Source: Coprobacillus sp. (GTDB lineage Bacteria; Bacillota_I; Bacilli_A; RFN20; CAG-826). Taken from it: a DNA stretch of 64,000 nt. Position numbers and translations under genes: made by a program. This document shows positions 757-60,117 of the stretch, in pieces. The DNA lies in assembly GCA_021203905.1 (NCBI GenBank), contig JAJQAG010000003.1, positions 1-64,000 on the forward strand, given 5' to 3'. A model generated the notes under the pieces. It made no database searches. It saw only the letters and a program-made list of their open reading frames with translations, and was not told the origin of the DNA. The number at the start of each line of letters is the position of its first letter. Position 1 is the first letter of the stretch.

Positions 757-2281
<1,525 letters not shown>

Positions 2282-44145: not shown

Positions 44146-45198
44146 GTCCCTATGACGAAAATTAACAGGCTTTTTGTTTTTGCGCATTAATTCAATCTTG
44201 ATATCGTCATAATTGTCATAAATGTTATTTTCAAGAGTGTCCACTTCAACGAGTTGAAGCATGTAATCTGGGAAGCCTTGTTTATTGCGGGAGAATGCCA
44301 TCATGGAGAAGGAGATAATCAGAGGAATCCCAAAAGTAAAGACAGAGAGGATCCACTCCGCAAAATAGAAGATAAGGAAACGCGCGAGAGTTTTCTTCCA
44401 TGTGGGATTCAGTAATCTCTTATCAAGAAGTCCAATATGATAGGCTAACTTCCCAATGGTCTTTCTTCCTCTCTTAAAGATCCAAGTGGGGACATAGTAG
44501 ACTAAGATTCCAGTGACTAAGAAAGCGGGGGCAATCTCCGCCCAAATAAGCATATTCGATTGATACTTTGTTAATTCATAGTAATTAGGAATAGCGACGA
44601 CGAGATATCCTTGAGCAACCTCATCTATATAATAGGTATAGAAGTTATCAAAGTACTCTTGAGCACCGATATTCTCATAGCACACCATATTAATAACAAT
44701 CTCCCCAGTTTCTTCATCCACAATGAAATAATGTTGTCCGTATTCATCCACAAAATCATCACTGAGTCTGGCTTCATCATAGGAGTTGTGGATTCTAATA
44801 GCGTCCGCTGTACTACACTTCTCATCACAATAAGCGAGGAACTGATCAATCTGTCTCTGGGCATAATCCATTCTCACATAAGCGGTGTAATCCACACGAT
44901 TAAGGTATTTTACTAAATCGATGACTCCCCAATCACTATCATCAACATAGAGTCCACTTTCCACTTGAACAGTCTCTAACTCATCCATGTTGCTTTTGTA
45001 TTTTGGAGTGGCCCCGACAATTCCACGACAAGAGATGAAGAGAAGAAAGAAGATAACCACCGCAATGAGAAAGTCAATAATATTAGCAACACAGCGATGC
45101 CAAAACTTTGGGTTCTTATACTCAATATCAATCTTTTCATTAGGTCCTATCTCAATATGAGGATCATAGTTATTGGTTAAGTCGTCTGTGGGGCTCAT
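44137..45198 (-). CDS. RDD family membrane protein 2
   Basis: 353 aa. RDD pattern: FWHRCVANIIDFLIAVVIFF (first helix with the R...D pair), then a large external loop of about 140 residues with acidic repeats, then KTIGKLAYHIGLLDKR and further helices. RDD proteins are thought to be transport-related (some act as Na+/H+ antiporters), but most are uncharacterised. Its ATG overlaps the stop of the preceding RDD gene (ATGA), proving translational coupling and that TGA is a stop here. The stop region holds the next operon's -35. Confidence 0.8.
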   Translation of the reverse strand: MSPTDDLTNNYDPHIEIGPNEKIDIEYKNPKFWHRCVANIIDFLIAVVIFFLLFISCRGIVGATPKYKSNMDELETVQVESGLYVDDSDWGVIDLVKYLNRVDYTAYVRMDYAQRQIDQFLAYCDEKCSTADAIRIHNSYDEARLSDDFVDEYGQHYFIVDEETGEIVINMVCYENIGAQEYFDNFYTYYIDEVAQGYLVVAIPNYYELTKYQSNMLIWAEIAPAFLVTGILVYYVPTWIFKRGRKTIGKLAYHIGLLDKRLLNPTWKKTLARFLIFYFAEWILSVFTFGIPLIISFSMMAFSRNKQGFPDYMLQLVEVDTLENNIYDNYDDIKIELMRKNKKPVNFRHRDLQ

Positions 45199-46316
45199 AC
45201 TTTATATCCTCTCGCTCGATAGATTTCATCTAGAGAATCATTATCAATAAACACTGTTCTTGACAGCTTATCAAACATTGTTTGATTAAACTGGGTCACC
45301 ATTAATATCACCAGTGAGACGAGGATTACCACTAACCCGATTACTGAGAGAATCAAGAATTGACTATTACCTAAACCAAAGAGGTAGTTAAAGTTCACTG
45401 TGGGATAGGGAAGAAACATGATAAAGACGAGGTTTGCTATGATGGAGTAGATAGAGTTAATCGCTACTTCTCCCTTTCTTAACAAGTAGATATTATTAAT
45501 TCCCACTCTCTCAATCTTCATGATCATCATTCCAATAGTCTTACCATGTTTTGTGCATAAAGGAATCACCAGGAAGTAAATCAGAGAGGAGAGAAAGAAA
45601 GCAATATAGGTCGAGATTGTAACTATCGTATCAACCTTTGCCACTAACTGTTCAATCTCATGATCCACCATGTTATAGCTCATGCCATTATACCAGACAT
45701 CGTTCAGAGCGATATCTTCGATCATGTCATCAAAAGCCACAGTGAAGAAGTCATTAACGATATTGTCATAGAGGGTTTCTGCCTCTCCACTAGGAGTGTC
45801 TCCCACTCGATAGAAAGAGGAGAGAAGCTCTTGATACTCGGGGACAAGAGAGACCGCACCATCACTCACTACAAAGTATATTGAGCTATCATAAACACTA
45901 TAGTAAGTCTCTTCATCGTCTCGGATAGTGACATAGTAGTTATAGAAGATATCATACTCACTATCTTCTCCAGTAGTGAAGTATTCAATGAGCTTACCAG
46001 CGGTATACTCTTCACTCGTGGTGAGATAGGTTTTATAGTTCGCATTTTCATAAAAAAGGAGGTTATTAGCGAACAAAATGTCCGCAATATCCTCATTTCT
46101 TTCATAAATTTGCTCTGTGTAGTCGTTATAGTGCATCGCCGCTTTCATGATGGGAACCACCGCAACATTCATAAGAAAAACCGCAATGATAAGGTTCATA
46201 AAAAGATCTGCAAGAAAGAGTAAGATACGTCTTCCTCTTGTGAGGGGATTAATGTTAATCTCATTCGGTCTGGTGTCTTTAGTTTTATCGTATAGTGATT
46301 CTATATTCGCGGGCAT
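45195..46316 (-). CDS. RDD-like membrane protein 1
   Basis: 373 aa. First helix GRRILLFLADLFMNLIIAVFLMNV with R...D, then a ~170-residue external loop (EQIYERNEDIADILF ... VDHEIEQLV), then HGKTIGMMIMKIERVG and three more helices. It is a diverged relative of its neighbour, and the two probably form a complex. It has its own promoter downstream of the candidate small RNA. Function unknown. Confidence 0.75.
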   Translation of the reverse strand: MPANIESLYDKTKDTRPNEININPLTRGRRILLFLADLFMNLIIAVFLMNVAVVPIMKAAMHYNDYTEQIYERNEDIADILFANNLLFYENANYKTYLTTSEEYTAGKLIEYFTTGEDSEYDIFYNYYVTIRDDEETYYSVYDSSIYFVVSDGAVSLVPEYQELLSSFYRVGDTPSGEAETLYDNIVNDFFTVAFDDMIEDIALNDVWYNGMSYNMVDHEIEQLVAKVDTIVTISTYIAFFLSSLIYFLVIPLCTKHGKTIGMMIMKIERVGINNIYLLRKGEVAINSIYSIIANLVFIMFLPYPTVNFNYLFGLGNSQFLILSVIGLVVILVSLVILMVTQFNQTMFDKLSRTVFIDNDSLDEIYRARGYKV

Positions 46317-46335: not shown

Positions 46336-46364
46336 ATTTTATTCTAAAACATTGTTCGCTGCAA
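46336..46364 (-). promoter_or_regulatory. Promoter of the RDD gene pair
   Basis: Minus strand TTGCAG (46359-46364) and TAAAAT (46336-46341), spacing 17, about 20 nt before ATG. SD-like GAGGG follows. It separates the RDD pair from the RNA gene upstream. Confidence 0.6.
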
Positions 46365-46395: not shown

Positions 46396-46473
46396 AAAAG
46401 AAAAAGGGATCTATAAGCTAAGTAACTACTGGACGAGTTTTACTATGAAAGGAGGTAAATGCTTATAAATCCC
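46396..46473 (-). ncRNA. Candidate small RNA with 16S-3'-tail mimic
   Basis: About 78 nt. It starts GGGATTTATAAGC and closes with GCTTATAGATCCC (13 pairs, one G-U that pairs only on this strand), followed by TTTTTCTTTT as a terminator. Inside, AGTAA/TTACT forms an upper hairpin, leaving ATTTACCTCCTTTCAT unpaired on the 5' side. ACCTCCTTTC is identical to the 16S 3' end and complementary to strong SDs. An extended -10 sits 7 nt before the first G. No known family recognised. Confidence 0.6.
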
Positions 46474-46479
46474 ACTCCT

Positions 46480-46488
46480 ATTATAGCA
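46480..46488 (-). promoter_or_regulatory. Extended -10 promoter of the candidate small RNA
   Basis: Minus strand TGCTATAAT; the seventh base downstream is the first G of the RNA's closing stem (46473). No clear -35; it directly follows the tuf terminator. Confidence 0.6.
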
Positions 46489-46495
46489 AATAAAA

Positions 46496-46514
46496 ACCCT
46501 AGATAGTCTAGGGT
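46496..46514 (-). terminator. tuf terminator
   Basis: Minus strand ACCCTAGA-CTA-TCTAGGGT followed by TTTTATTTG. It lies about 28 nt after the tuf stop. Confidence 0.9.
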
Positions 46515-46542
46515 TAATATTTAATTAAGGTTTAGTCAAATC

Positions 46543-47727
46543 TTATTTTAAGATTTCGGTAACAGTTCCGGATCCCACAGTGTGTCCACCTTCACGGATT
46601 GAGAAGAGGGTTCCTTTCTCAAGAGCGATTGGGTGAATGAGTTCCACTGTTAAGTCAACATTATCACCAGGCATCACCATATCCACACCTGCTGGGAGAG
46701 TTACCACACCAGTAACATCAGTGGTACGGAAATAGAATTGAGGACGATAATTAGTTAAGAAGGCTGTGTGACGTCCACCTTCTTCTTTCTTAAGCACATA
46801 GACTGTGCCTTTGAACTTGGTGTGAGGAGTCACAGTACCTGGTTTCGCAAGGACTTGACCTCTCTGGACTTGGTCACGGCTGACACCACGGAGTAAGACA
46901 CCGATGTTATCACCCGCTTGAGCATAATCAAGAGTCTTACGGAAGGACTCAAGACCAGTAATGACGGATTTGATGGTGGGTTTAATACCAACAATTTCCA
47001 CTTCATCACCGAGTTTAGCGGTACCTCTTTCCACACGTCCAGTGACAACAGTGCCACGACCTTGAATCGTCATGGTATCTTCAATTGCAAGAAGGAATGG
47101 TTTATCAACATCTCTAGCAGGAGAAGGAATGTAGGTATCACAAGCATCGAGTAACTCTAAGACGTGCTTCTCTTCTTCTGCATTCCCTTCAAGAGCAAGA
47201 CGAGCGCTACCACGAATCACAGGAACTTCATCTCCAGGGAAGCCATATTCAGTGAGTAAATCACGAACTTCCATCTCGACGAGATCAATTAATTCGGGAT
47301 CATCAACTAAGTCAGTCTTGTTGAGATACACAATGATGTAAGGGACACCCACTTGACGAGCAAGAAGGACGTGCTCTCTTGTTTGAGGCATGACACCATC
47401 AGTCGCGGCGACGACGAGGATTGCTCCATCCATTTGTGCCGCACCAGTAATCATGTTCTTCACATAGTCAGCGTGCCCTGGGCAGTCAATGTGAGCATAG
47501 TGTCTAGTTGCAGTGGAATACTCAATGTGAGCGGTGTTAATGGTAATACCTCTCGCTTTTTCTTCTGGCGCAGAATCGATTTGATCATAGCTGGTCTTTA
47601 CTGCACCACCAGTTTTGGATAATACGGAAGTAATCGCTGCGGTTAATGTGGTTTTACCATGGTCAACGTGTCCAATGGTACCAATGTTCACGTGCTCTTT
47701 ACTTCTGTCGAATTTTGCTTTTGCCAT
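46543..47727 (-). CDS. tuf: Elongation factor Tu
   Basis: 394 aa, normal length. GTPase that brings aminoacyl-tRNA to the ribosome. G motifs: GHVDHGKT (near 20), DCPGHADYV (near 81), NKTD (near 136). SARLALEG (S-A-L-x-A-L in most) shows a small change. Domain 2 and 3 sequences ([13 protein letters not shown], the DMVMPGDN segment, [10 protein letters not shown] end) are standard. SD GAAAGGAGA precedes ATG. It is the last gene of the rpsL-rpsG-fusA-tuf string, 80 nt after fusA. Confidence 0.99.
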
Positions 47728-59976: not shown

Positions 59977-60011
59977 TCGATTCGTTTCCTCCTTATTAAG
60001 ATTCGTAAGGA

Positions 60012-60088
60012 TTCAATATACAGGTTTATATTATTGCCTCGGTAACATGATTAAGACCTAGGTCCGTTACTGTCTTGGGTATATTGAA
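60012..60088 (-). ncRNA. Ribosomal protein L10 leader
   Basis: Minus strand TTCAATATAC / GTATATTGAA closes a stem; inside are CCAAGACAGTAACGGA and TGTTACCGAGGCAATA, the conserved kink-turn halves of the L10 leader known from Bacillus and others. L10(L12)4 binding to this RNA represses rplJ-rplL. Located 36 nt before the rplJ start. Confidence 0.8.
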
Positions 60089-60117
60089 ATCTTTTTAAAC
60101 GACCGTTGTTCTACATA

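Follow-up and report, generated by a model that had tools for sequence, protein, structure and literature searches.

The described systems that lie closest to the present locus are small RNAs (sRNAs) that offer mRNAs a sequence complementary to the Shine-Dalgarno (SD) sequence. The csRNAs of streptococci occur as several siblings per genome and have unpaired stretches that contain anti-SD and anti-AUG sequences (PMC3091779, PMC4507080), by which they base-pair with translation initiation regions; their predicted sizes range from 51 to 202 nt and some possess a single terminator hairpin (PMC3091779). In staphylococci the Rsa RNAs and RNAIII hold a UCCC motif in hairpin loops, and translation is repressed when this motif pairs with the SD (PMC3861533). 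The locus considered here encodes a candidate RNA behind tuf, referred to below as the tuf RNA, for which we put at about even the chances that it is an orphan trans-acting sRNA, one that represses translation by pairing with SDs. To our knowledge little is known of the regulatory RNAs of small-genome, host-associated bacteria of this kind, and a literature search combining small RNA with RF39, the presumed order of the host, returned no paper.

The candidate lies on the minus strand of the window, by which is meant the whole 64,000-nucleotide stretch of DNA that was analysed, and the coordinates of its parts and neighbours are collected in Table 1. The original prediction was of a self-contained RNA gene of about 78 nt, in which an extended -10 element is followed by a 13-bp closing stem with a G-U pair and then directly by a T tail, and all of these parts proved to be in place on that strand. 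The stem begins 6 nt past TGCTATAAT and encloses a loop of 42 nt, such that the predicted RNA would start at G46473 and end in the T-rich tail; a promoter scan upstream of it found no recognisable -35. The fold has an energy of -18.6 kcal/mol with z = -4.2 against dinucleotide shuffles, whereas on the plus strand the stem is broken and z falls to -2.5 against the same kind of shuffles, in agreement with the proposal that the stem is perfect on the minus strand only. A weak inner hairpin belongs to the minimum-energy fold and is absent from the centroid fold. Within the 5' bulge, the proposed identity of ten nucleotides with the 3' end of the 16S rRNA is exact (10/10), these being the only two copies of ACCTCCTTTC in the window, where 0.19 would be expected, and the motif is indeed predicted to be accessible, with unpaired probabilities across CCUCCUUUC of 0.72-0.99. 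The RNA sits beyond the intrinsic terminator of tuf, and in most relatives a terminator-like stem is likewise found directly 3' of tuf.

Table 1. Positions of the tuf RNA, its parts and neighbours (window coordinates) and of the two RNAs of like design (contig coordinates).
Feature	Position	Strand	Basis or remark
Extended -10 element TGCTATAAT	46480..46488	-	sequence; intergenic enrichment of element
tuf RNA (predicted, 78 nt)	46396..46473	-	placement of -10, stem and T tail
Closing stem, 5' arm GGGATTTATAAGC (13 bp)	46461..46473	-	sequence and fold
Closing stem, 3' arm GCTTATAGATCCC (one U-G pair)	46406..46418	-	broken on + strand
T-rich tail TTTTTCTTTT of intrinsic terminator made by closing stem	46396..46405	-	sequence
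Anti-SD (aSD) motif ACCTCCTTTC, 5' bulge	46447..46456	-	equals 16S 3' end
Weak inner hairpin (AGTAA.ACT / AGT..TTACT)	46421..46444	-	minimum-energy fold only
tuf (EF-Tu), upstream neighbour	46543..47727	-	
tuf intrinsic terminator, between tuf and small RNA gene	46495..46515	-	
Downstream gene, 373-aa membrane protein (RDD gene of the original prediction)	45195..46316	-	
Possible weak -10 (TAGAAT) of downstream RDD gene	46341..46346	-	read from sequence
16S rRNA gene 3' end, matching ACCTCCTTTC	758..767	-	
Second RNA	G000 contig C2:160358-160430	-	15-bp stem enclosing TCCTCCTTTCTCTAATAATAATGTCATTC, T run
Third RNA	G002 contig C22:1655-1735	-	GAATAGTGATGGGG-loop-CCCCATCACTATTT, CCTCCTTTC in loop, T run

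The same design is met twice more, in a second RNA at the mgtA locus of the host genome (G000) and a third in the congener G002, and the aSD motif is predicted to be unpaired in all three RNAs. The second RNA has an extended -10, TGTTATAAA, upstream, and folds with z = -5.0; a further CTCCTTTC occurs immediately upstream of its stem. It lies in a long gap before genes of the opposite strand, for a 109-aa membrane protein and for what is, by its sequence, an mgtA-like P-type ATPase, and it is directed towards the 3' end of a convergent gene, a layout that rules out a role as leader. The third RNA, with a 14-bp stem and z = -5.2, is situated between tRNA-His and a glycosyltransferase gene. Read on the complementary strand, neither the second nor the third RNA has a start codon at a normal distance after the SD-like sequence, so that these elements are not merely the ribosome-binding sites of genes seen in reverse. 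The two share an outer stem, AATAGTG/CACTATT, and in the 224 genomes of the family they were the only motif-bearing matches to a pattern of these ends plus a T run. The tuf and mgtA copies have stems with no relation in sequence, and a MAFFT alignment of the three RNAs did not bring the stems, which differ and lie at unrelated loci, into register. With a second RNA in the host and one of the same design in a congener, the tuf RNA becomes a member of a small set of siblings, and the existence of a second RNA of like design suggests that, if made, the tuf RNA and its sibling act as regulators by covering the sites where ribosomes land. The proximity to tuf appears incidental, the other two RNAs being found at other loci, and the reading of that proximity as a hint of translation control loses its force, the more so as relatives lack an RNA after tuf.

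How far does this set of RNAs extend among relatives? Nothing like the tuf RNA is present 3' of tuf in G001 and G002, in which EF-Tu is 91% identical, the mgtA copy is absent before mgtA in G001, G002 and G003, and the hairpin is also absent at the tRNA-His locus of G001, where G002 has the third RNA. The congener genomes are 72-81% complete and the covariance and descriptor searches scored part of the candidates, and on this footing a genome-wide absence of the hairpin from the congeners is likely. A covariance search, which had been proposed for the regions downstream of tuf, yielded no convincing homologue of the tuf RNA in the 224 family genomes. A single-RNA covariance model (R1) gave scores of 21-31 bits in the 224 genomes, with the inspected matches all falling in coding or chance sequence, and BLAST against 58 relatives yielded nothing beyond short matches attributable to chance. 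A descriptor model (R2), consisting of a random 13-bp stem, the motif and a U tail, of which the first pass scored part of the candidates, recovered the known hairpins at 31-38 bits; its best other match in the 224 genomes (28.7 bits) was an AT-rich gene-start region and its best other match within the genus (29.2 bits) a low-complexity stem lacking the motif. Across 58 genomes, 67 unique matches to CCTCCTTTC followed by T5 were examined and were mostly antisense SDs beside terminators, the only long G-C-bearing stems among them being the hairpins of this genus. In the genome-contig collection there was no match to an exact 22-mer and no relative of the downstream RDD gene; in viral contigs an 18-mer had one match, unrelated and resembling the antisense of a gene start; and phages returned 21-nt matches only (E 0.3) and plasmids none. 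Because no homologue is found at orthologous loci or in the 224 family genomes, there are no homologous stems in which covariation could show and no sign of long-term selection, and the picture, as read from the genomes, is one of a small, rapidly turning-over set of putative anti-SD hairpin RNAs within one genus.

An absence of conservation in any relative is also what would be seen if the element were a chance or decaying hairpin, an unusually good inverted repeat that has no function and a merely fortuitous -10 beside it, or one left over from the extension of a terminator sequence. The expectation of about 0.1 such hairpins per genome is compatible with this explanation, which is the foremost of the alternatives, though we judge it unlikely. 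What argues against it is the coincidence of promoter, stem, motif and T tail, a coincidence that was assessed by scanning the host genome (790,382 bases, 40% G+C), with its 343 intergenic stretches. On the crude ORF-based gene calls made for the present analysis, upon which the term intergenic rests, TGNTATAAT occurs at 2.01 per 10 kb between genes and 0.11 per 10 kb within coding sequence, an 18-fold difference that argues for a functioning promoter element in this genome, and a perfect extended -10 sits 4-9 nt upstream of 0.11% of random intergenic positions. When the whole genome was scanned for stems that have 11 bp or more and run into T5, the tuf RNA was the only match with a correctly spaced -10, and in ten simulated genomes none of the 39 stems of this kind had one. 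Large-loop terminator hairpins in which the stem has 12 or more pairs, 5 or more of them G-C, number exactly two in the 343 intergenic stretches, and both (2/2) carry CCTCCTTTC in the loop, for which the chance per loop of such size is 0.0006 to 0.001; 60 simulated genomes contained a mean of 0.12 hairpins of this kind, none with CCTCCTTTC. That both hairpins of the host should carry the same 9-mer has an expectation of about 1e-6, a figure that serves as a guide and is no clean test, given that the thresholds were set after both hairpins had been seen. On the other side of the balance, the genome-wide count of CCTCCTTTC in the host is no higher than that of its reversed control (12 v 12). The anatomy of the RNA, its recurrence and its enrichment over chance can thus all be read in the DNA, and with the -10 and terminator in register and sibling designs in host and congener, the prediction of a self-contained gene holds: we are confident, on these sequence grounds, that the tuf RNA gene is well formed and probably transcribed.

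Could such a transcript be instead the 5' leader of the downstream RDD-type gene, in which the hairpin would act as an attenuator, a regulated terminator that on read-through allows the gene to be expressed? The two are on the same strand, about 90 nt separate the end of the stem from the start codon, and in G002 the third RNA likewise precedes a co-directional gene. Moreover, the promoter that the original prediction had assigned to the RDD gene is weak: its candidate, TTTATT-16-TAGAAT, makes 8/12 matches as judged by eye, and a promoter scan upstream of the gene found none. Nevertheless, no hairpin is found upstream of the RDD orthologues of the three congeners G001, G002 and G003 (61-64% identity) or of those of two other genera, G033 and G015, the second RNA of the host has ahead of it a convergent gene and none that it could lead, and there is no evident antiterminator pairing. 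The leader, an alternative that had been named from the outset, is for these reasons disfavoured, and comes second among the unlikely explanations.

With a trans-acting anti-SD sRNA as the preferred reading, the mechanism would be as follows. RNA polymerase would start at the extended -10 behind the tuf terminator and produce an RNA of about 78 nt, for which the long closing stem and U tail would provide its own terminator. In the loop or bulge that the stem encloses, CCUCCUUUC, the anti-Shine-Dalgarno sequence of the ribosome, would be kept single-stranded, allowing the RNA to pair with the strong SDs (GAAAGGAGG) of mRNAs, and this pairing would hide the ribosome landing site and so lower translation of the target mRNAs. 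Transcription and stability of the RNA, and the pairing and repression ascribed to it, are things that we infer, the pairing with SDs being plausible. Target prediction against 5' regions, which had been suggested as a check, gave no outlier set, the best pairs being no stronger than those made by loops with scrambled flanks, so that either there are many targets, picked by SD strength alone, or the method is too blunt. A broader version would have the genus-specific hairpin RNAs compete with the 30S subunit for all strong SDs and act, in a reduced genome, as a global dial on initiation, not on one target; we regard this as rather doubtful.

A further question is whether the hairpins are a small MITE-like mobile or dispersed DNA element with terminal inverted repeats, in which the anti-SD sequence is incidental. 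Three instances at unrelated loci that are absent from the orthologous sites, and the AATAGTG/CACTATT stem ends shared by the second and third RNAs, would fit such an element. It is nevertheless improbable, since neither the genome nor phages or plasmids have repeated copies, the stem of the tuf copy is unrelated to that of the mgtA copy, and no target-site duplication was seen. Least probable is that the plus strand is the functional one, with GAAAGGAGGTAAATG serving for ribosome binding to a leader-type ORF of 15 codons within the hairpin (window 46435-46500), as its strong SD, which precedes an ATG by 3 nt and gives MLINPTPIIANKNPR, is set against a strand that has neither promoter nor terminator, an overlap with the tuf terminator, an imperfect stem on that strand, a short SD spacing and the lack of an ATG at the corresponding place in the other two RNAs.

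A number of other elements with related features were observed. For instance, at C2:187930-188025 (+) of the host genome, the 3' UTR of a gene for a 229-aa membrane protein, lemA-like in appearance, contains a hairpin, then ACCTCCTTTC and then a strong terminator, and is possibly a 3'-UTR-derived anti-SD RNA. At C3:17362-17414 (+), behind a gene, a 15-bp hairpin with a T8 tail has the pyrimidine-rich loop CTCTTTCCTAACTCATCCCTATA and is perhaps another C-rich-loop RNA. Elsewhere on this contig, near 266450-267050, there is a CRISPR-like array with a repeat-like unit GTTTGAGAGTAGTGCTATTTAAGGTAAGATAGGTAC, of which one spacer-like stretch contains TTTACCTCCTTTC, 13 nt identical to the tuf RNA loop. 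Upstream of each of two mgtA-like copies in G003 (C78:1572-1620 and C15:1601-1652) the opposite strand carries CACCTCCTTTC and then a terminator hairpin, where CACCTCCTTTC may equally be the SD of a small plus-strand leader ORF. In G029, which belongs to another genus, a small palindrome, CCTCCTTTCACTTA(T/A)TACGAAGGAGG, in which an SD-like sequence is paired with its own anti-SD, is repeated in at least 5 places (e.g. C13:19167, C5:54765, C3:124141 and C21:8259).

With respect to known RNA families, a match to a family with another role had been named as one outcome that would speak against the prediction. In Rfam 15 the tuf RNA has no match at the gathering threshold, the best being the rimP leader at 20 bits against a threshold of 47, and the second and third RNAs have no match. 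An L10 leader (RF00557) occurs elsewhere in the window, at 60006-60097 (-). The host genome has, at other places, the RNAs of the signal recognition particle (SRP) and of RNase P (class B) as well as tmRNA, the last on contig C2 (-) with the tag AKPSYFESARSTPSLALA, so the tuf RNA does not stand in for one of these housekeeping RNAs; no 6S RNA reached the Rfam gathering threshold in the stretches searched. A tblastn search of the host genome for an Hfq-like protein found none; many Gram-positive sRNAs are independent of Hfq.

If true, a compact hairpin with an exact ribosomal tail would represent a simple and testable route to new sRNAs, since any hairpin loop that gains CCUCCUUUC could bind many mRNAs, and the fast turnover between congeners would offer an example from nature of how sRNAs are born and lost. 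Comparison with what has been described begins with structured RNAs in general. Like SRP RNA, 6S RNA, tmRNA and RNase P RNA, the tuf RNA would be a small structured RNA gene, but one that has no Rfam match. It resembles intrinsic terminators and 3'-UTR-derived sRNAs in having a stem and then a U run behind a gene, and differs from them in lying past the real tuf terminator, in having a -10 to itself and in the size of the loop, 42 nt. The statement that there is no family of this kind was too strong, in that the csRNAs and the UCCC-loop sRNAs share the trick (PMC3091779, PMC3861533).

As in the csRNAs of Streptococcus, there are sibling RNAs and an unpaired anti-SD, the csRNA-type feature being seen in ACCUCCUUUC (predicted unpaired at 0.72-0.99), and the tuf RNA also has a CAU 3 nt upstream of CCUCC, which is absent from the other two RNAs. 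However, the csRNAs usually carry the anti-SD between two stem-loops, and in the tuf RNA the motif is inside the loop of a single closing and terminator stem. They are also driven by CiaR, for which the binding motif in their promoters is a TTAAG direct repeat, whereas the promoter of the tuf RNA is an extended -10 without a CiaR repeat, no TTAAG direct repeat being present upstream of 46488 when the sequence is read directly, and no sequence kinship between the csRNAs and the tuf RNA was seen. With the staphylococcal UCCC-loop RNAs the tuf RNA shares a C-rich, SD-complementary motif in a predicted accessible hairpin loop, but that motif is CCUCCUUUC, which lacks UCCC and reproduces the full 9-10 nt of the 16S tail, and the RNA is a single short hairpin with no homology to the Rsa RNAs or RNAIII (no Rfam match). 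The mechanism class of anti-SD sRNAs is therefore already known and the present set of RNAs is not; the interest of the latter is that an exact 16S tail is used more than once in RNAs of a single hairpin, with fast turnover within the genus.
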